NCBI GenBank assembly: GCA_947561715.1
Contig: OX387200.1
Coordinates: forward strand, 8,310,501 to 8,374,500
Direction of reading: 5' to 3'
Length of the DNA stretch: 64,000 nucleotides
From: Ascidia mentula
Taxonomy: Eukaryota > Chordata > Ascidiacea > Phlebobranchia > Ascidiidae
The notes under the pieces are model-generated. The model was not told where the DNA came from. It did no database searches and saw only the letters and a program-made list of their open reading frames with translations. The stretch's first letter is position 1; each line of letters begins with the position of its first letter. The translations under genes were made by a program, and so were the position numbers. This document shows positions 14,398 to 24,452 of this stretch, piece by piece.

Positions 14398-14554
14398 CCA
14401 GATTGGAAAAAATGTCGTTGCGAAAATTTACCGATAATCCGCGCAATATTAATGAGCTAATGCATTAACAAACGAAAAAACGTTGCGATCGTCCGCGCAA
14501 TTAACGATCGCCGTAACGAAATTCTCCGCGCAAAAAACAAACTTTCCAATCTGG
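14398..14554. repeat. hAT-like MITE with perfect 8-bp target duplication
   Basis: A 157-bp element starting CCAGATTGGAAA and ending TTTCCAATCTGG (12-bp perfect inverted repeats). It is flanked on both sides by GACATAGG (14390-14397 and 14555-14562). An 8-bp duplication and short inverted repeats fit a non-autonomous hAT element. The interior contains several CCGCGCAA motifs and no open frame. Its right target duplication overlaps the left target duplication of the adjoining MULE. Confidence 0.85.
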
Positions 14555-14566
14555 GACATAGGGAGT

Positions 14567-14856
14567 GGTAGATGCTAAAGAACCACCCCACAGCTAGGTC
14601 GGCAATTGTGGTCATAGAAATCGTACAAATATGGGGTATATTGGTTTTGGGAAAGTGTAAACAAACACCTGTCAAATTAATTTGGTAGCATTATTTAAAT
14701 ATCAATTAATTTTTAATCATTTGCCGAACTAGCATCTGATGCCGAAATAACAGTAATACCTTGTAGGTCTCATGTAGGGATATCACGGAATGAACGGCGG
14801 GAAAGAAATCACGTGAACAAGGTCCTTTTTTGCAGCGTGCGATTGCGTTTGTGTGG
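14567..14856 (+). repeat. Left terminal inverted repeat of the MULE
   Basis: This 290-bp arm matches 23962-24251 in reverse, with one difference (A at 14625 against G). Near its inner end is a strong splice acceptor, CCTTTTTTGCAG, followed by CGTGCGATTGCG. A TATTTAAAT element lies about 130 bp earlier. Transcription of the microexon gene probably starts in or just inside this arm. Confidence 0.95.
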
Positions 14857-14932
14857 TTTCATAAGAAAAGTTATTTGTATAACTGTACGTTGTTAGTATT
14901 CTTTATTTAATAATGCTTTTGTTAATTTAGAA

Positions 14933-17900
14933 ATGGAGTTTAATTTTCACTCCGTACAATCGGTGGTGGTTAACCACCACCACCATCACCACCACCAGCA
15001 ACAACCCAAAAAGGTAGGTGGAGAATTACTTGCATATTTTTTGTTGAAAAAATATACGTTTGACATAATTTTATGTTCACAGAAATTTGCAACGCGAAAA
15101 AGGTAAGAATAACACTTCTTTATACTAAAATTTTGGACGGCTATTGTTATGACACTAATACATGGTGTCAGTGTCCGATAGTAACACCCCTGAATGCAAA
15201 GATGTGCATTGGGTAATTGTTGAGTGCACCAGATAAAATTTAAAACCTCATGCACAAGATAAAGTTGAAGACAAGCATAGTTTTATTTTTGTGGTGGTGT
15301 CCACTGATTACCCCTTTATTTTAACTGAATATATTTTATAGATTCCTCGAAAAGGAGGAATTTTGCCGGCTGCAATCGTAAGATACTTGTTATACATGTT
15401 GCGTTTATTAACCAAATCTTTATGATGCCCATTAAAAACAAGTAGAAAAGTGTTGGTCTTGTTGTTGGGTTCTTAAACTGTGCAAGTTATGCTCAAAAAT
15501 GAATTTTTTGGAAGAAATGCTGTCAATGAACAAGCCAATTCTGTGACCAATAATGTAATTGCCCTGATAGATTTTGAAATTGTGTGTCGCAAATGCCATG
15601 AGTGTTTGCAAGTGCATTACATCCAGAAATATTGGGAGCCAACTGAGATCGTAAACAAAGTATTGTTACTAAATTAATCACAGTTGAATCAAGTTTTTGC
15701 CAACCAACACACTTTTTTTAATTTAGTGAAAACAAGATCCCCAAAACATCGGAGTAAGTGGTGTCATTACTGTCATATAAAATAAGTTGACAAGTAAAGA
15801 ATTTTATCTCATTTAATTTTTTACAGATGGGTCCCAGAAGAAATTTTCTGGAAGAGACATGTAAAAATACTAATCTTTATACTTATATATAACACTATTT
15901 AGTACGTGCATAAACACTATTTAATTCTGGTTATTGTAAGTCTATGTAGTGTGCTATTGGCTAATAACTACTAATCAGTTTTGTTTCTGTTTTAGAGGCA
16001 GACAGAGAAAGGAGCAAGTGTGAGTGAATATTCTTTCCTATTATTGTAGCATACTAAGCTATTGGTTTATAAATACTAATCAGTTTGTTTCTGTTTTAGA
16101 GTCAGGCAGAGAAAGGAGCAAGTGTGAGTGAATATTCTTTCCTATTATTGTAGCATACTAAGCTATTGGTTTATAAATACTAATCAGTTTTGTTTCTGTT
16201 TTAGAGGCAGACAGAGAAAGAAGCAAGTGTGAGTGAATATTCTTTCCTATTATTGTAGCATACTAAGCTATTGGTTTATAAATACTAATCAGTTTGTTTC
16301 TGTTTTAGAGTCAGGCAGAGAAAGGAGCAAGTGTGAGTGAATATTCTTTCCTATTATTGTAGCATACTAAGCTATTGGTTTATAAATACTAATCAGTTTT
16401 GTTTCTGTTTTAGAGGCAGACAGAGAAAGAAGCAAGTGTGAGTGAATATTCTTTCCTATTATTGTAGCATACTAAGCTATTGGTTTATAAATACTAATCA
16501 GTTTGTTTCTGTTTTAGAGTCAGGCAGAGAAAGGAGCAAGTGTGAGTGAATATTCTTTCCTATTATTGTAGCATACTAAGCTATTGGTTTATAAATACTA
16601 ATCAGTTTGTTTCTGTTTTAGAGTCAGGCAGAGAAAGGAGCAAGTGTGAGTGAATATTCTTTCCTATTATTGTAGCATACTAAGCTATTGGTTTATAAAT
16701 ACTAATCAGTTTGTTTCTGTTTTAGAGTCAGGCAGAGAAAGGAGCAAGTGTGAGTGAATATTCTTTCCTATTATTGTAGCATACTAAGCTATTGGTTTAT
16801 AAATACTAATCAGTTTTGTTTCTGTTTTAGAGGCAGACAGAGAAAGAAGCAAGTGTGAGTGAATATTCTTTCCTATTATTGTAGCATACTAAGCTATTGG
16901 TTTATAAATACTAATCAGTTTGTTTCTGTTTTAGAGTCAGGCAGAGAAAGGAGCAAGTGTGAGTGAATATTCTTTCCTATTATTGTAGCATACTAAGCTA
17001 TTGGTTTATAAATACTAATCAGTTTTGTTTCTGTTTTAGAGGCAGACAGAGAAAGAAGCAAGTGTGAGTGAATATTCTTTCCTATTATTGTAGCATACTA
17101 AGCTATTGGTTTATAAATACTAATCAGTTTGTTTCTGTTTTAGAGTCAGGCAGAGAAAGGAGCAAGTGTGAGTGAATATTCTTTCCTATTATTGTAGCAT
17201 ACTAAGCTATTGGTTTATAAATACTAATCAGTTTTGTTTCTGTTTTAGAGGCAGACAGAGAAAGGAGCAAGTGTGAGTGAATATTCTTTCCTATTATTGT
17301 AGCATACTAAGCTATTGGTTTATAAATACTAATCAGTTTGTTTCTGTTTTAGAGTCAGGCAGAGAAAGGAGCAAGTGTGAGTGAATATTCTTTCCTATTA
17401 TTGTAGCATACTAAGCTATTGGTTTATAAATACTAATCAGTTTGTTTCTGTTTTAGAGTCAGGCAGAGAAAGGAGCAAGTGTGAGTGAATATTCTTTCCT
17501 ATTATTGTAGCATACTAAGCTATTGGTTTATAAATACTAATCAGTTTTGTTTCTGTTTTAGAGGCAGACAGAGAAAGAAGCAAGTGTGAGTGAATATTCT
17601 TTCCTATTATTGTAGCATACTAAGCTATTGGTTTATAAATACTAATCAGTTTGTTTCTGTTTTAGAGTCAGGCAGAGAAAGGAGCAAGTGTGAGTGAATA
17701 TTCTTTCCTATTATTGTAGCATACTAAGCTATTGGTTTATAAATACTAATCAGTTTTGTTTCTGTTTTAGAGGCAGACAGAGAAAGGAGCAAGTGTGAGT
17801 GAATATTCTTTCCTATTATTGTAGCATACTAAGCTATTGGTTTATAAATACTAATCAGTTTGTTTCTGTTTTAGAGTCAGGCAGAGAAAGGAGCAAGTGT

Positions 17901-18495
17901 GAGTGAATATTCTTTCCTATTATTGTAGCATACTAAGCTATTGGTTTATAAATACTAATCAGTTTGTTTCTGTTTTAGAGTCAGGCAGAGAAAGGAGCAA
18001 GTGTGAGTGAATATTCTTTCCTATTATTGTAGCATACTAAGCTATTGGTTTATAAATACTAATCAGTTTGTTTCTGTTTTAGAGTCAGGCAGAGAAAGGA
18101 GCAAGTGTGAGTGAATATTCTTTCCTGTTATTGTAGCGTAGTATATAAGATTTCCTTTTATTTCTAGAAAGATGCAACAAGACCTGTAAGTATAGAATGT
18201 GTATTTCTCAGTATGCATACACTATGAGCTTTGCATCCGTAAGCAATACTGTTAAACATATCCAACTGTGTTAATATTGTAGATAATAAGCCAGGAGTTT
18301 CTGCTGAATGTGCAGAAGTATGTCAAATTTCTGTCAAATAATTCTGCTGACTAATATTTTCTGTATTTTGTAGGAGGATGATCAGACAACTGTAAGTGCA
18401 ACAAACATTCTGCGAAGTTTTTGTGTTTTTTATTGGAAAAGTTCTCACATTTTTTTATTGTTTTACAGAAAAAAACATCAATAAATCAGATATGA
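14933..18495 (+). CDS. Transposon-borne microexon gene (about 30 exons, about 263 aa)
   Basis: I do not recognise the protein. Exon 1 (14933-15013, 81 nt) encodes MEFNFHSVQSVVVN, seven His, then QQQPKK; its ATG lies 2 nt after TTAATTTAG. Microexons follow, each with GT/AG borders: 15083-15102, 15342-15377, 15727-15753 and 15827-15860. They join in frame (KFATRK; FLEKEEFCRLQ; ENKIPKTS; WVPEEIFWKRH) and end in phase 0. Twenty-one 24-nt exons follow (first 15996-16019, last 18083-18106), each one octapeptide. The tail is 18168-18185 (KDATRP), an exon ending at 18317, 18374-18391 and 18469-18495. The exon ending at 18317 can begin at 18283 or 18291. The latter keeps phase 0 (PGVSAECAE, EDDQTT, KKTSINQI, stop); the former shifts frame and stops sooner. 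No stop interrupts the first 26 exons. The product would be hydrophilic and largely disordered. Its position matches that of mudrB in MuDR, but I see no sequence relation. Confidence 0.75.
15996..18106 (+). repeat. Tandem array of 21 microexon-plus-intron units (104/105 bp)
   Basis: Each unit is a 24-nt exon plus an 80- or 81-nt intron. The intron starts GTGAGTGAATATTC, has a perfect-looking branch site (ATACTAATC) and ends TTTCTGTTTTAG. Exon starts are 15996, 16100, 16205, 16309, 16414, 16518, 16622, 16726, 16831, 16935, 17040, 17144, 17249, 17353, 17457, 17562, 17666, 17771, 17875, 17979 and 18083. Three exon types occur: SQAEKGAS (13 copies), RQTEKEAS (5) and RQTEKGAS (3). The 81-nt introns, with one extra T before GTTTCTG, always precede the RQT types. 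The intron before the first unit is a diverged relative, and the intron after the last diverges from about base 21. Confidence 0.95.
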
Positions 18496-18899
18496 TTTAC
18501 TTATGGGTTGTGATTTGCAACTATTAAACAATATGTTAGTGTTAGTTAGTCGATGTTTGCACAGGATTTCCAACCACGGCTAAGGGAGCCATCCTGCATG
18601 TGGTCGTTGGGCATTTTTGATAACCCAGAAGCCTCGCCAGTAGCCATATCAAACTGGGTATTCAATGACCAGTTTGTTCACATAATTGCGTTTAAAAGCG
18701 AATAGGCTAATCGGCAACCACACAAAGCGTTAACGGTCAACCACATTCATACATAAGGGGAGTTTAATTTTAATCAGAAACTCAAACCCTGTGCAGAACG
18801 TTGAGCCTTTTCAGACTTATTTGGTTGGTTGACCACACTTGTGTTCAATAGGCCATTGCCCTTGCACAATAATTGATGTATTTATAAAAAAAATGATAT
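18496..18899. other. Spacer between the two convergent transposon genes
   Basis: About 400 bp separate the stop codons of the microexon gene and the transposase. No coding signal is visible. Both 3' UTRs and polyadenylation sites must lie here. Confidence 0.5.
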
Positions 18900-21800
18900 T
18901 TACACTGGACAAACAAAGTATTTATCGTCCTTCGCATATTCTAGTGAATAATCAATACACTTTATGTGAAACCATTGTTTGCATCGAGTGCATTCAATCC
19001 AAACAACTTCTGAAGAGTCAACACCTTCATCTTTGCATGATTTACAAATGCCTTTCTTTGTTGTATTATCAAGACATTTGCCAGCAATACAGTTTAGGAT
19101 TTGCAATCTATAACTTTGAACAGAACCATTTTGTTGTAAGCATTGTCCTGTTGCTAGCCGTTTTGCATACATACAAATCAAAACTCCACAACTAGATCCA
19201 TCTGGCTGCTGTTCTCTTTCAGGAGTCACCACAGAAGCAATATTCCAACCAAACTTGACAGCTAAAAGATAATTAACCATCTTTTTTGCAGTGGAAACAT
19301 AATGGTCATCCTTGCAAGGCATTGTCATTGGATTAATGTAAAGCAGTGTTCTCCTTTGGATATCAACCACTAGTAGTACCCAGTGACAACCATCAGGGTT
19401 CCAGGGAATGAAAATAACCTTTTTTTGCTGTAATTTAATACCTTCCCAAATCTTTTTAATTGAAACTCTTCTTTGCAATGCTTGAGCTACAGTTGAACAG
19501 ACATACATGGTGTGTTTATACATGCAAGTTAATTGCCATAGGTAACTGTTGATAATTTCATCGTACAGCCAACCTACATTAAATCGATTGTCATGCTTTT
19601 GCAAAACACACACTTCATGTGCAGGCAATGCATCATCAAGCGATTTCAATTCTAAAAATGAGCTTGAATGAGGTCCGTTTTTCAAAGGCTTCTTCATTGG
19701 ATTATAATTTTTAATAAAGCCAGTTATGCTCTTATTCCCACTGGTTTCAGGACACTGAGGCTCCTTCATCATAGGTGAATTGCAAAATGAGGACTGAAAT
19801 GTAAAACTTTCACTGTTTTTTTGTTTTTTCTTTTTGTCCTGATTACACACAGGAAAGAGTGTGCTAACTTGGTGCAACGGTTGCATCATATTTGCATACT
19901 TTCCCACACGAGAGGCAAATGGATTTGGTTTGGGTCGCTTACGCGGCAGTTCATCATGAGAACTTTGTGAAGGTATCGGTACTTTCCTTTTTCTTCTTAA
20001 GGATGTCAGTTTTGATGATTGTGTTATTCTCAAGCCAGCATCAATGGAACATGCCTTAGAAAACTCGTCAATAATTGCTTGAACATCTGAACATCCTTTT
20101 TCCAATACTTGCTCTGAAGTCACGTCATATGACACATCTGACAAAGATTTTATCAGGTCAACAAATTTTCTATGTGTTTGTTCGTAACTTTTAGGGTCAT
20201 CTATTTTCTTGTTGTTTTCAGAATCAACTTGCGAAGTAGGGCTGTTGACAGCGGGTACTTTTAATGTTGTTGGTGAGTCAACAATTTCTTTAACATGCAT
20301 ATCATGGGAACCAGTTTCCGGAGAGATTTGGTCCACAACAGCAGGATCCAAAACCATGTACACTGAGCTGTGGTACCACTCAGGTAGGCTATACCAACCA
20401 ACATCTGAAAACTTGTTAAAAACTGCAAACATGTGCTTGCATGGTAAAAAATGTAGTGTAAAATCAATGCATGTGCATTTTGGAAATTCACTACCACTAC
20501 CCAGTTTTACATTGTACACTTCACATGTGGAACTGCTCACCACAGTAAACACATTGTCTCCTATTCTACAAATTTTACTTTCCTCAACATTCACAGACTC
20601 TCCTATACGTTTAATACAATGTTGCACCACCTTCTTTGGTCGATTTTGTAGATAGGTGGGAATGTTTTTGTTGTAACTTCTGTAATTGCTTGATGACCGT
20701 AAATTTTCTTGTTTGTATCTACAAAATCAGTCTTGTGACTTAGGTTTAGTACTAAAACACAATAACTTACTTGTTCCAACCGTTTGGCAGAAATTCCTTG
20801 TGTAAAATAGTAATTAGGCCAGACAGGGACTTGTCGGTCCTAAATCTGACATGACATTCTTTCAAAACACGATTTTGTCTCTCCACACCATTGTTTGTGC
20901 GAATGAGAACCTTCAACTGATCGGCTCGATGCAACCACAACCATCGCTAAAATATGTTTTAGGTTTATTTTACATTTATTCTGCTTGTTGCCACATACCT
21001 TTTTTTCTTTTAGCCAAATATTAGTGAAGTACTTCTGCAGTTTTAAATTATTTTTCCAATGTGTACTTGACTGCAAGAGCCACAATGCTTTTTCGTAGCT
21101 CTCTTCACATTCAGCACTTGCTACATTTCTCATTAGTGAAAGCACTTCATCCTTATCTTGGCCAACATTATTGTCAGACTTTCTTACCCATCGTTCCCAT
21201 GCCTGTTCTCGATGGAAATCACAAATAAGGACATTTGTATCTGTAAGCACGCTTGTTTAGTATACATATTTATCTAAACATGCAATGCACAAACCTGCAA
21301 AGACACTTTCAATCGCATGTATTTCTGCTTCACATTTGTCAACCATAAAATAGTTTGGTTTCCAAGAAGGTGCCCAAGTTTTTAAAATGGACAATGCCTC
21401 CTCAATGTCCATTTGTCGCTCATTTTGTGTAATAAAGCTGGCCACAACTTGGTAACCAACATTTGATTTCACACAAAGAAAAAATAGTGGAAGAGCATAT
21501 TTGGATGTTTTGTAGGTAGCATCCAGTAAACAAATATCTTGCCCATATCGAATTAGTAAATTGCGCTGCCAGGCAAACTGGTGAACAAACAACAGAGTTT
21601 TTTCTGATTTAATTACTGGTGCTGATTCCCCATCACCAACAACATCGGGTTCATTGCCGGCAACATATGGACGAAAATAAATCTTGTCATCCAAATCACC
21701 ATCTCTATTCCATTCATCAACCAAACTTTGGACATTGGTTTGATCAATCTTTGCCAACCTGTATTTTGTAAAAGCTCGGTAGTAATGGTTTCGCACATCC

Positions 21801-23858
21801 TTTTTGGTAGGATAAAATCTCCTATTTGAAAGGTCGGGTCCATCTTCACTTTTGAAGAGTTCATGGGCTACGTAGTGTTTTAATACTCGCAAAATTTCCT
21901 CAACACTGTTTACCCCTTCGGTGACCAGTTCATCAATTTTGGCAATTAACCTTTGATCAATAGGTTGTAAAAATCCGGCAGCCTTAAAACAAATTGATTG
22001 AAAAAATTATGTCAATATTATTCATTATTCCAAAACTTGTACACACTTCCCCAATCACATGGCCTGAATGATCGTCATCCCTTGGAAAGAGAATGCTGCA
22101 AGCCAGTTCTTTCACCAACTGTACATCATTGATCATTAATAGATCTTTAATGATGATGCTTATCTTGCTCTTAATAAATTCATCTTTGATGGATGACTAT
22201 AAAGAAGGAATATGGATTATTGGATAGAAGTTGTTCTGTTTAAACACATTATACTGTTTAACAATGCAACATTGTTAAAAAACAACAAACCTGAAACTGC
22301 GGAAATTTCATAATTTCTTGAACAAATATAATTGCTTTGCAATTCTTTTTCTTCGTTCCTTGCACACACAACCTCTTTTTTAAAGGATTAGGGTGATCTT
22401 GCAACTTAACATAATCTGTTAGTATATCAAAAGTGCTTTGTCGTCACAAAATTTACTTGTTTAGGAACAGCTGAACACTTTTCTTTCTTCTGTTTGTTAT
22501 GATCTTTTCCCTGGTGACATTCTAAAGTCAAACTTCTTAAAATAATGTACGGAATTTGAGAACATTTGTCCCAAAATATTCGACTTTTGGATGTATCTGG
22601 AAAAAAGCACTTTCTTGCAATCACTAATTACATAATGGTTTTTGATACTTTCATCAACATACCATATTCTTTCCTTTTTTTTATAATAAACTTGGTTATT
22701 GTTGAAACCTCAAACTTTTCTATAAGTCTGTAAGCTTCATTCACTGAAGAAACCCACTGTGAGATTTCAGTATTAAAAATTATAGTACAAATAAAAATTC
22801 TAACTACCTATACCTTTCGCTTGCCACTGTTTAAACAGTCCAACTCATTGGTACTCGTAATCTAAAAACATAATGTACATCTGTAGTGGTGCCTACTTGA
22901 AAGTAGCAAGACAACTATGCAAACCATTTCATTAGCTGGTTTTTCCGTCTCAAATTTGACTTTAACAAGCTGTGTACAAAAACCTTCTTCCTGCAACAAA
23001 TCTGCATCTTTGGAAGAAAGGCGATTTCTAATCTCTTTGCTTGCCGTTGCAACTAGGAACTCTGTACCCTAGTATTATAAACACAAAAGCAGAGACGTGT
23101 ATGTACATACTATAAGTATCGTTAAATAAACAGACAAGTGAAATTTGTGTGTAGATATTAAGTTCATCAAATATTGCATATAATTTATACCATATTTTTG
23201 TACTCCTGTAAATGCAGTACATGTGAAATTGTCACTAAATACTGGCATTGAAAATGTTGGCAAACTGAAGTTCTGTCAAAATGCCAAGATGTTTTCCAGC
23301 ACTCCTCCTGAACAACTACATATGGAATGCCTGTAGTATCATTCCAATGTACATGCCATTTATGTGCATCTGCATTACAGGCAAAATTATCATTTGTATC
23401 ATGTGCTATTCTGGCCACCATTTCACTCTTGAGCATGACATTACATAGAAAATAACACAACATTGTAAATTAATTCCACAAGAAGAGGTCCTACTAAAAT
23501 GAACAATTAATATTGCCACAAACCAAAAACTTTGACTTTTGAATCCTTCAATTTCAGTTTTAAGGAATTTACAAAGTGTTGCATGGAGTTCCATGCCTCC
23601 TGCCTTGTCTGAAACCACTTAAGCCAGAACAAAAAAAATGGTTTAAACTTTTTTTAATGTACCCTACCTACATCATTGTTGACCAACCTTTATAACTGTG
23701 TTTGTAGACATAAAATCCGCCATTTTAAAGCCCATCACAGGTACATAGCTGTAACAAAGTTTACGGACATGCTTACAGGGGTTACAACATTTCAAAAAAT
23801 CCTTCGAAAAATCTCACCACGACTGTTTCATGCTTTCGTGAAAAATCTTCTTGGGCAT
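18900..23858 (-). CDS. MULE transposase with SWIM, Ulp1-like peptidase and PHD-like domains
   Basis: About 1,345 residues. The last five exons are firm: 21982-21295, 21240-20999, 20946-20771 and 20718-18900, plus one near 22198-22041. Upstream exons between 23858 and 22400 are less certain. The MULE catalytic triad is visible: Asp of LLDATYKT (21521-21523), Asp of YFMVDKCEAE (21338-21340) and Glu of TNNGVERQNRVLK (20881-20883). A SWIM zinc finger follows (CTCIDFTLHFLPCKH). After a basic linker comes a C48/Ulp1-like domain: GWLYDEIINSYL, His of GCHWVLLVVD (19383-19385), and Gln/Cys of QQPDGSSCGVL (Cys 19188-19190). The position expected to hold Asp is Asn (YINPM, 19332-19334). It ends in a PHD-like finger (CKSCKDEG, WIECTRCKQWFHIKC, YFVCPV) that lacks the last Cys. 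N-terminal exons contain a Cys/His-rich block, possibly DNA-binding. The start is probably MPKKIFHESM; an upstream ATG (23946-23948) encodes MDQV before a donor and is out of phase. Confidence 0.85.
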
Positions 23859-23961
23859 ATGAATACAGTTTCTGAAATGGCGTCTTTCCCTGGAATCAAA
23901 GCAATCAAACTCATTGAAAAAAAAATTTATACTTACAACTTGATCCATGACTCCAACAAAT

Positions 23962-24251
23962 CCACACAAACGCAATCGCACGCTGCAAAAAAGGACCTTG
24001 TTCACGTGATTTCTTTCCCGCCGTTCATTCCGTGATATCCCTACATGAGACCTACAAGGTATTACTGTTATTTCGGCATCAGATGCTAGTTCGGCAAATG
24101 ATTAAAAATTAATTGATATTTAAATAATGCTACCAAATTAATTTGACAGGTGTTTGTTTACACTTTCCCAAAACCAATATACCCCATATTTGCACGATTT
24201 CTATGACCACAATTGCCGACCTAGCTGTGGGGTGGTTCTTTAGCATCTACC
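23962..24251 (-). repeat. Right terminal inverted repeat of the MULE
   Basis: Mirror of the left arm. Read on the minus strand, its inner end has the same CCTTTTTTGCAG acceptor, followed within the element by the short ATGGATCAAGTT exon and a GTAAGT donor. The transposase transcript therefore begins in or beside this arm. Confidence 0.95.
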
Positions 24252-24452
24252 ATAGGGAGTGGGACAATAGTATTTAAACTTGATTTAGAATTTACCTTGA
24301 ACCATGCAAATGGGGTACATGTGCTTTACTGGATTCCTATTTGGGTGTTATTTAATACTTTGTTTCAAATAAAGTAAATTATTTACCTTTTTGAGTTTTT
24401 GTAAGTATAAGGGAAATTTATGTGCTAAAACAAGTGCTTATTACAAGAAACT

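Follow-up and report, generated by a model that had tools for sequence, protein, structure and literature searches.

What is the series of tiny, splice-bordered coding stretches on the plus strand of a DNA transposon in the ascidian Ascidia mentula, and does it belong to the element that surrounds it? The stretch of DNA analyzed here, hereafter the window, comprises 64,000 nt of contig OX387200.1 (assembly GCA_947561715.1, positions 8,310,501 to 8,374,500 of the forward strand). An earlier note on this stretch had proposed a gene of about 30 microexons carried inside a Mutator-type transposon, and the exons, their GT/AG borders, their common frame, and the terminal inverted repeats (TIRs) and target-site duplications (TSDs) of the element are all present. 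With a probability of roughly 60%, we read the plus-strand gene as genuine and as an ancestral second gene belonging to a lineage of ascidian Mutator-like elements (MULEs), one that would encode a nuclear accessory protein with a frame-neutral repeat tail.

A microexon chain inside a Mutator-like transposon

The window element is a genuine MULE of the ascidian genome, which was searched as 196 Mb in 79 contigs. Mitochondrial cox1 likewise points to a sea squirt, with AGA and AGG standing for glycine at conserved positions (MIGGFGNW), as in the ascidian mitochondrial code. It spans 14567-24251 (9,685 bp), with its ends set by the TIR start and the TSDs of five copies. Inverted arms of ~293 bp that are 99% complementary were found at 14566-14859 and 23959-24252, and the TIR start was fixed as GGTAGATGC by the 9-bp TSDs read in the flanks of the window element and of the copies L009, L010, L011, and L012. 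Duplications of 9 bp fall within the 8-11 bp typical of the MULE superfamily, and the DDE domain of this superfamily is found at 21257-21892 (PF10551, E 1.2e-9). The transposase is coded on the minus strand in several exons and is convergent to the microexon gene. Its Pfam matches comprise MULE, ZSWIM1/3 RNase H-like, SWIM, Peptidase_C48, and PHD (PF00628, E 8.8e-7) domains, as well as a CARF-like ALS2CR8 match below the cut-off, and no stop codon interrupts its two long coding stretches (249 and 606-608 codons) in any of the three full-length copies (window, L009, and L012). A search of viral contigs found no relatives of the transposase.

The plus-strand chain joins 30 exons in one frame to give a coding sequence of 789 nt, including the stop, and a predicted protein of 262 amino acids. 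Its ATG, at 14933, lies 73 bp inside the end of the left TIR (14859), and the gene runs toward the transposase. As had been claimed, the five upstream exons (E1 to E5; 81, 20, 36, 27, and 34 nt) are in frame with GT/AG borders and arrive in phase at an array of 24-nt exons, 21 in number, which is followed by exons of 18, 35, and 18 nt and a last coding exon (Table 1). The array lies within a tandem repeat (15953-18137; period 104-105, 97-98% matches) between the 3' end of the transposase and the left TIR; its introns measure 80-81 nt, and the repeats carry GTGAGT, TACTAAT, and TTTTAG. The 3' end of the gene was revised. It had been placed at 18495, with a TGA at 18493-18495, but because family B, a related transposon family described below, shows a 35-nt next exon (18283-18317 in the window), the stop is instead read as the TAA ending at 18484. 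From this exon on, the frame was chosen according to family B (ISQEFLLNVQKRMIRQLK in family A, that of the window element, vs ICQGFLQNMQKRMIRPLK in family B), and the protein ends in VQKRMIRQLKKHQ.

Directly 5' of the ATG (window 14923-14933) there is a TTTAG/TTTAAAG-type splice acceptor, likewise present in the family B copy L029. Ascidians use trans-splicing, and this acceptor could belong to an intron in the 5' untranslated region or be a site of spliced-leader trans-splicing.

Copies, families, and the reading frame

The closest relatives of the window element, L009 to L012, are 97-99% identical to it in DNA. E1 to E5 are in frame with the same splice borders in the full-length window, L009, and L012 copies and in the short derivatives L010 and L011, which have lost the transposase through deletion and kept the 5' part of the microexon gene; in L011, E1 has lost 12 nt of its His run without a change of frame. 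The number of 24-nt units varies (21 in the window, 8 in L009, 6 in L010, 4 in L011, and 3 in L012), and the unit length is 24 nt in 42 of the 42 units of these five copies, with the third unit of L012 having a GTAAGT donor. Among 41 family A units, all four variable sites in the 24-nt exon are nonsynonymous, although the sites are few; the introns of these units are 79-81 nt long and contain three variable sites at the commonest length. In the eight units of L029, one of three variable exon sites is synonymous.

Four transposon families, A to D, carry a microexon gene that converges on the transposase gene. Family B, comprising L029 and its relatives, is ~70% identical to the window element in the microexon-gene region; its chain lacks E2, retains E3, E4, and E5 at 36, 27, and 34 nt, and continues in L029 with eight 24-nt exons (RQVEKEDD, the last RQVQKEDN) and exons of 21, 35, and 18 nt. 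In family C (L055), E1 is followed by exons of 23, 36, 27, 31, and 27 nt and then by 11 units, 10 of them 24 nt. No match between L055 and the microexon gene of the window was found by blastn. A spliced-profile search built on families A and B alone scored family C at 76.1, vs a maximum of 40.0 among 100 dinucleotide-shuffled sequences of 10 kb and of 35.1 on either strand of five stretches taken from elsewhere in the window. Family D (L057) is represented by a 901-bp piece, ~4 kb from an opposite-strand MULE match having one internal stop codon, and it shows the same core followed by exons of 21, 24, and 24 nt of other sequence. Array units are in phase 0 in A, B, and C. Families with other unit sequences yet 24-nt exons thus suggest that the 24-nt exon series is older than the present arrays.

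Genome-wide, sequence patterns for E3 and E4 gave 19 and 18 matches, respectively, vs none for the backward-read control patterns, and together with the family C score, these controls bear out the earlier judgment that the agreement of the exon chain exceeds chance. By their letters, all 18 E4 matches and 18 of the 19 E3 matches are of the four family types; the E3 match at C69:1251962 may be a chance one. A MULE match lies on the expected side, on the opposite strand, and within 8 kb of 8 of the 19 E3 matches, where an even spread would predict ~0.02, but MULE matches cluster. Among the remaining 11 are short derivatives, fragments, and places with no MULE match listed. In a midpoint-rooted tree of 12 MULE exons, family C falls on one side of the deepest split and families A and B on the other. 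Presence of the microexon gene is known for 8 of the 12 rows, with L044, L047, L050, and L051 left aside, and L053, which yielded no such gene, falls on the A/B side. One ancestral microexon gene with later loss would be the simplest history. Because the gene accompanies the transposase across families, "cargo," the term used for it previously, is probably the wrong word, and the gene looks like part of the element.

Comparison of substitutions also points to a coding chain. In the equal-length exon blocks of families A and B, nonsynonymous and synonymous divergence (dN and dS) are 0.29 and 1.76 in frame, vs 0.44/0.35 and 0.39/0.46 in the shifted frames. For the E3-E5 core (29 codons), dN ranges from 0.27 to 0.54 over the six family pairs, and dS exceeds 1 for two of these pairs; for the other four it could not be computed and was taken as saturated. 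Of the 29 residues, 12-19 are identical.

Several observations weigh against this interpretation. The exon model was read from genomic sequence alone. For two of the family pairs, in-frame identity of the core is barely above that of the shifted frames (12 vs 9 and 10 for B/C; 14 vs 11 and 10 for C/D), and the exons are not more conserved than the introns between A and B: exon DNA is 67% identical over 174 nt, whereas three introns match at 87-91% of aligned bases, covering 20-88% of the longer intron. The codon-position excess in the A/B blocks is on its own weak (15, 17, and 25; p = 0.23), and between L029 and L038, differences occur at 12 of 173 exon sites and 6 of 184 intron sites. One family C unit has 23 nt, and E4 and E5 of L057 keep the frame only if their borders are moved (giving 31 and 36 nt), its usual E4 donor being lost; this donor is kept at two D-like places. 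A spliced-profile search found no microexon gene in L053, and none was recognized in the 3 kb examined of L056. Copies in which the exons were riddled with stops and frame breaks had been named as evidence against a gene, and on this point the result is divided: the five close copies and the distant families keep the frame, but L014 and L034 are decayed (5' exons missing or broken, E5 shorter by 16 nt, and a merged 47-nt first array exon), the older copy L031 has a broken microexon gene, and L038 has a 76-nt E1 with a broken frame. The coding case is therefore one of frame, phase, peptide core, and position and not of overall exon conservation. One possible reason for the exon/intron pattern is that the introns of microexons are themselves constrained.

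The predicted protein and competing explanations

The predicted protein begins with a His/Gln- or Pro-rich stretch, followed by a K/R cluster, the conserved core (F/Y)L...EF..LQ...K.xK...W(V/A)P...F, and a charged, repetitive tail of 8-residue units, with a basic C-terminal segment after the tail in A and B. Its predicted isoelectric point is 9.65 in A and 8.78 in B, and no signal peptide is apparent at the predicted N-terminus in A, B, or C, where the longest hydrophobic run in the first 40 residues is 3. The isoelectric points, the K/R clusters, and the lack of an apparent signal peptide suggest a nuclear protein. In Pfam scans, the spliced proteins had no significant match, in keeping with the earlier remark that the protein resembled nothing recognized. 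Neither these scans nor a solved-structure profile search yielded a homolog with known function, which, as with the fact that the functional assignment draws on position and composition only, counts against the accessory role proposed here. The one weak match of the structure search was to the WVPHEL region of the mariner Mos1 transposase (E 0.048; stretch E 0.11) and is not significant; the likeness of W(V/A)P...F in the core to this linker of mariner transposases is a lead only. A likeness of the N-terminus to the Crypton/QRICH1 type is backed by no Pfam match and was dropped.

The anatomy of the gene, its conserved frame and core, its position and strand, and its variable number of units are observed; expression, nuclear location, and function are predictions, and the gene might work as follows. 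A pre-mRNA of ~30 tiny exons would be spliced to yield a small, basic protein in which no signal peptide is apparent, and this second protein could serve as an accessory factor with or on the transposase, in binding, integration, transposition, or anti-silencing. The tail units are symmetric exons of 24 nt that each carry their own splice signals, and if whole repeats were gained or lost, as in minisatellites, or if exons were skipped, tail length would alter with the frame intact. The tail would thus be free to drift in length because each unit is a symmetric, frame-neutral exon.

Among the most closely comparable elements are those of the Rehavkus group. Rehavkus elements are described as having a PHD finger, a 9-bp TSD, TIRs of 26-400 bp, and a minisatellite preceding the 3' TIR (Dupeyron et al. 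2019, PMC6446971). The window element, likened by described features, matches in all of these, but Rehavkus was reported from arthropods and annelids with one open reading frame (ORF), whereas the host here is an ascidian, and the minisatellite is the exon array of a second gene. The array might be an ordinary noncoding minisatellite, as in Rehavkus and aphid Phantom, with exon-like units that are incidental; such elements are described with minisatellites (PMC6446971), and the period of 104-105 with 97-98% matches, the copy number of 3-21, and introns conserved as much as exons would all fit. We nonetheless regard this as improbable, as unique exons flanking the array on both sides join in frame, the units of B, C, and D differ in sequence and are still 24-nt phase-0 exons with splice signals, and the core peptide is kept across families. 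Much of the same evidence bears on the idea that the array acts mainly as RNA, its splice sites regulating the transcript through tissue-limited splicing or antisense control of the transposase mRNA, with the peptide tail being minor. The convergent genes and the highly regular introns, conserved at least as well as the exons, lend this some appeal; it remains unlikely given that the reading frame and core peptide persist from family to family and that exon units vary among families yet stay at 24 nt.

Two further origins for the gene were weighed. MULEs often acquire host sequence (PMC6446971), and the gene could be a captured host fragment, Pack-MULE-style cargo that plays no part in transposition. 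Three pattern matches, C69:1251962 and the D-like C67:3712843 and C71:17273875, have no listed MULE match nearby and could hold a host copy. No separate host parent was recognized among the E3 and E4 matches, nearly all of which are of the four family types, and the gene occurs on both sides of the transposase tree, leaving host capture with a rather small chance. A secreted effector, suggested by earlier comparison with microexon genes (MEGs) of schistosomes and bicycle genes of aphids, is very improbable. Schistosome MEGs also have a central run of mostly symmetric microexons of ~36 nt or less (24 nt in 21 of 21 units of the window), but they have long flanking exons and a signal peptide, belong to another phylum, and are not said to be transposon-borne in the available text (PMC4671649). 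Aphid bicycle genes, likened by description, also have many small internal exons of one phase, but these are almost all in phase 2, vs phase 0 for the window units, and the genes are putative gall effectors (PMC9168663). Many tiny symmetric exons, changing units, and the nonsynonymous variable sites in family A (with one of three synonymous in L029) would suit an effector; the phase, the lack of an apparent signal peptide in A to C, the basic composition, and residence in a transposon would not. On the evidence of frame, controls, and families A to D, the plus-strand gene is better read as a coding microexon gene of the MULE itself.

In maize MuDR, mudrA and mudrB are convergent, each starting in the TIRs. 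The layout of the window element is of this kind: its second gene begins a short way inside the TIR and points toward the transposase, and the same convergence is seen in L029 and L055. The likeness to mudrB is one of position and orientation, with no homology to MURB claimed, and the microexon architecture sets the window gene apart. Other two-gene MULEs (mutB, vanB/vanC), like MuDR with mudrB, also have a second gene beside the transposase, and the available account of these extra ORFs (mudrB, mutB, vanB, and vanC) and of minisatellites mentions no microexons (PMC6446971). A 2026 survey of arthropod MULEs treats Rehavkus as an outgroup, with second ORF, introns, and satellites unmentioned in the part available (PMC13359780). 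Searches of open-access papers yielded no microexon gene in a Mutator-type transposon, a schistosome paper that came up making no such link, in agreement with the earlier statement that none was known to be described. Annotation and translated searches can easily overlook genes of this kind, as a lone exon of 18-36 nt is too short to score.

If the reading of a second MULE gene is correct, it would place a microexon gene in a transposon, outside parasite and aphid settings, and it would make one repeat array both minisatellite and coding sequence, each repeat being hidden behind its own splice sites. It would also add an animal MULE with two genes, to be set beside maize MuDR, and offer a simple way of testing the unexplained minisatellites of related transposons. 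The "minisatellite" of Rehavkus may sometimes consist of such exons. A wider proposal, for which we would give somewhat less than even odds, is that the whole lineage of animal, Rehavkus-like MULEs has an ancestral second gene with its tail as a hypermutable microexon minisatellite and that minisatellites reported elsewhere are partly overlooked coding exons. In Tribolium, Rehavkus-1_TC has 164-bp repeats within its inverted termini (PMC10218199), and because of this location, the coding-array reading need not hold there.

Feature coordinates and minor observations

Table 1. Features of the window element and its flanks, in window coordinates.
Feature	Position	Strand	Basis
Left TSD ATAGGGAGT	14558..14566	.	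Flank sequence
Left TIR	14567..14859	+	Inverted-arm search, trimmed to GGTAGATGC by TSDs of five copies
E1, 81 nt	14933..15013	+	GT/AG borders, in frame
E2, 20 nt (by eye: 23 nt in C, the same 20 nt in D, no counterpart seen in B)	15083..15102	+	
E3, (R/G)(F/Y)L...EF..LQ; 36 nt in every copy read from A to D	15342..15377	+	
E4, 27 nt	15727..15753	+	
E5, 34 nt; W(V/A)P...F	15827..15860	+	
Array of 21 symmetric phase-0 24-nt exons (SQAEKGAS, RQTEKGAS, RQTEKEAS), period 104-105	15996..18106	+	
18-nt exon, KDATRP (B: 21 nt, KEVKRKV)	18168..18185	+	
35-nt exon, phase-shifting	18283..18317	+	Comparison with family B
18-nt exon	18374..18391	+	Comparison with family B
Last coding exon, TAA 18482-18484	18469..18484	+	Comparison with family B
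Conserved noncoding stretch between convergent genes	18560..18665	.	
Transposase C-terminal coding region: SWIM, Peptidase_C48, PHD	18900..20630	-	Pfam
Transposase exon region with MULE DDE domain	21257..21892	-	Pfam
Right TIR	23959..24251	-	Inverted-arm search
Right TSD ATAGGGAGT	24252..24260	.	Flank sequence

At a position comparable to that of the microexon array, L053 (2280-3343) has a 57-bp tandem array that is largely open in one frame, with the 19-residue unit MWVGPRFQLWCSVEALNTL. Six short copies (L015-L018, L020, and L021) have big internal deletions and keep pieces of the 3' end of the microexon gene and little of the transposase.

An Rfam scan of 14400-24400 gave nothing reliable, with a single match (E 0.98) below the cut-off. 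The noncoding stretch between the two genes, ~105 bp long, is 96% identical between A and B (L029), with surroundings near 71%, and it persists in L053 and L056 at 84-86%. It is present in five of the six short copies (L015-L018 and L021) and was not found in L020. A weak hairpin is predicted within it, with two-sided change in 3 of 10 pairs, and the stretch may be a shared 3' end, a regulatory element, or an RNA element.
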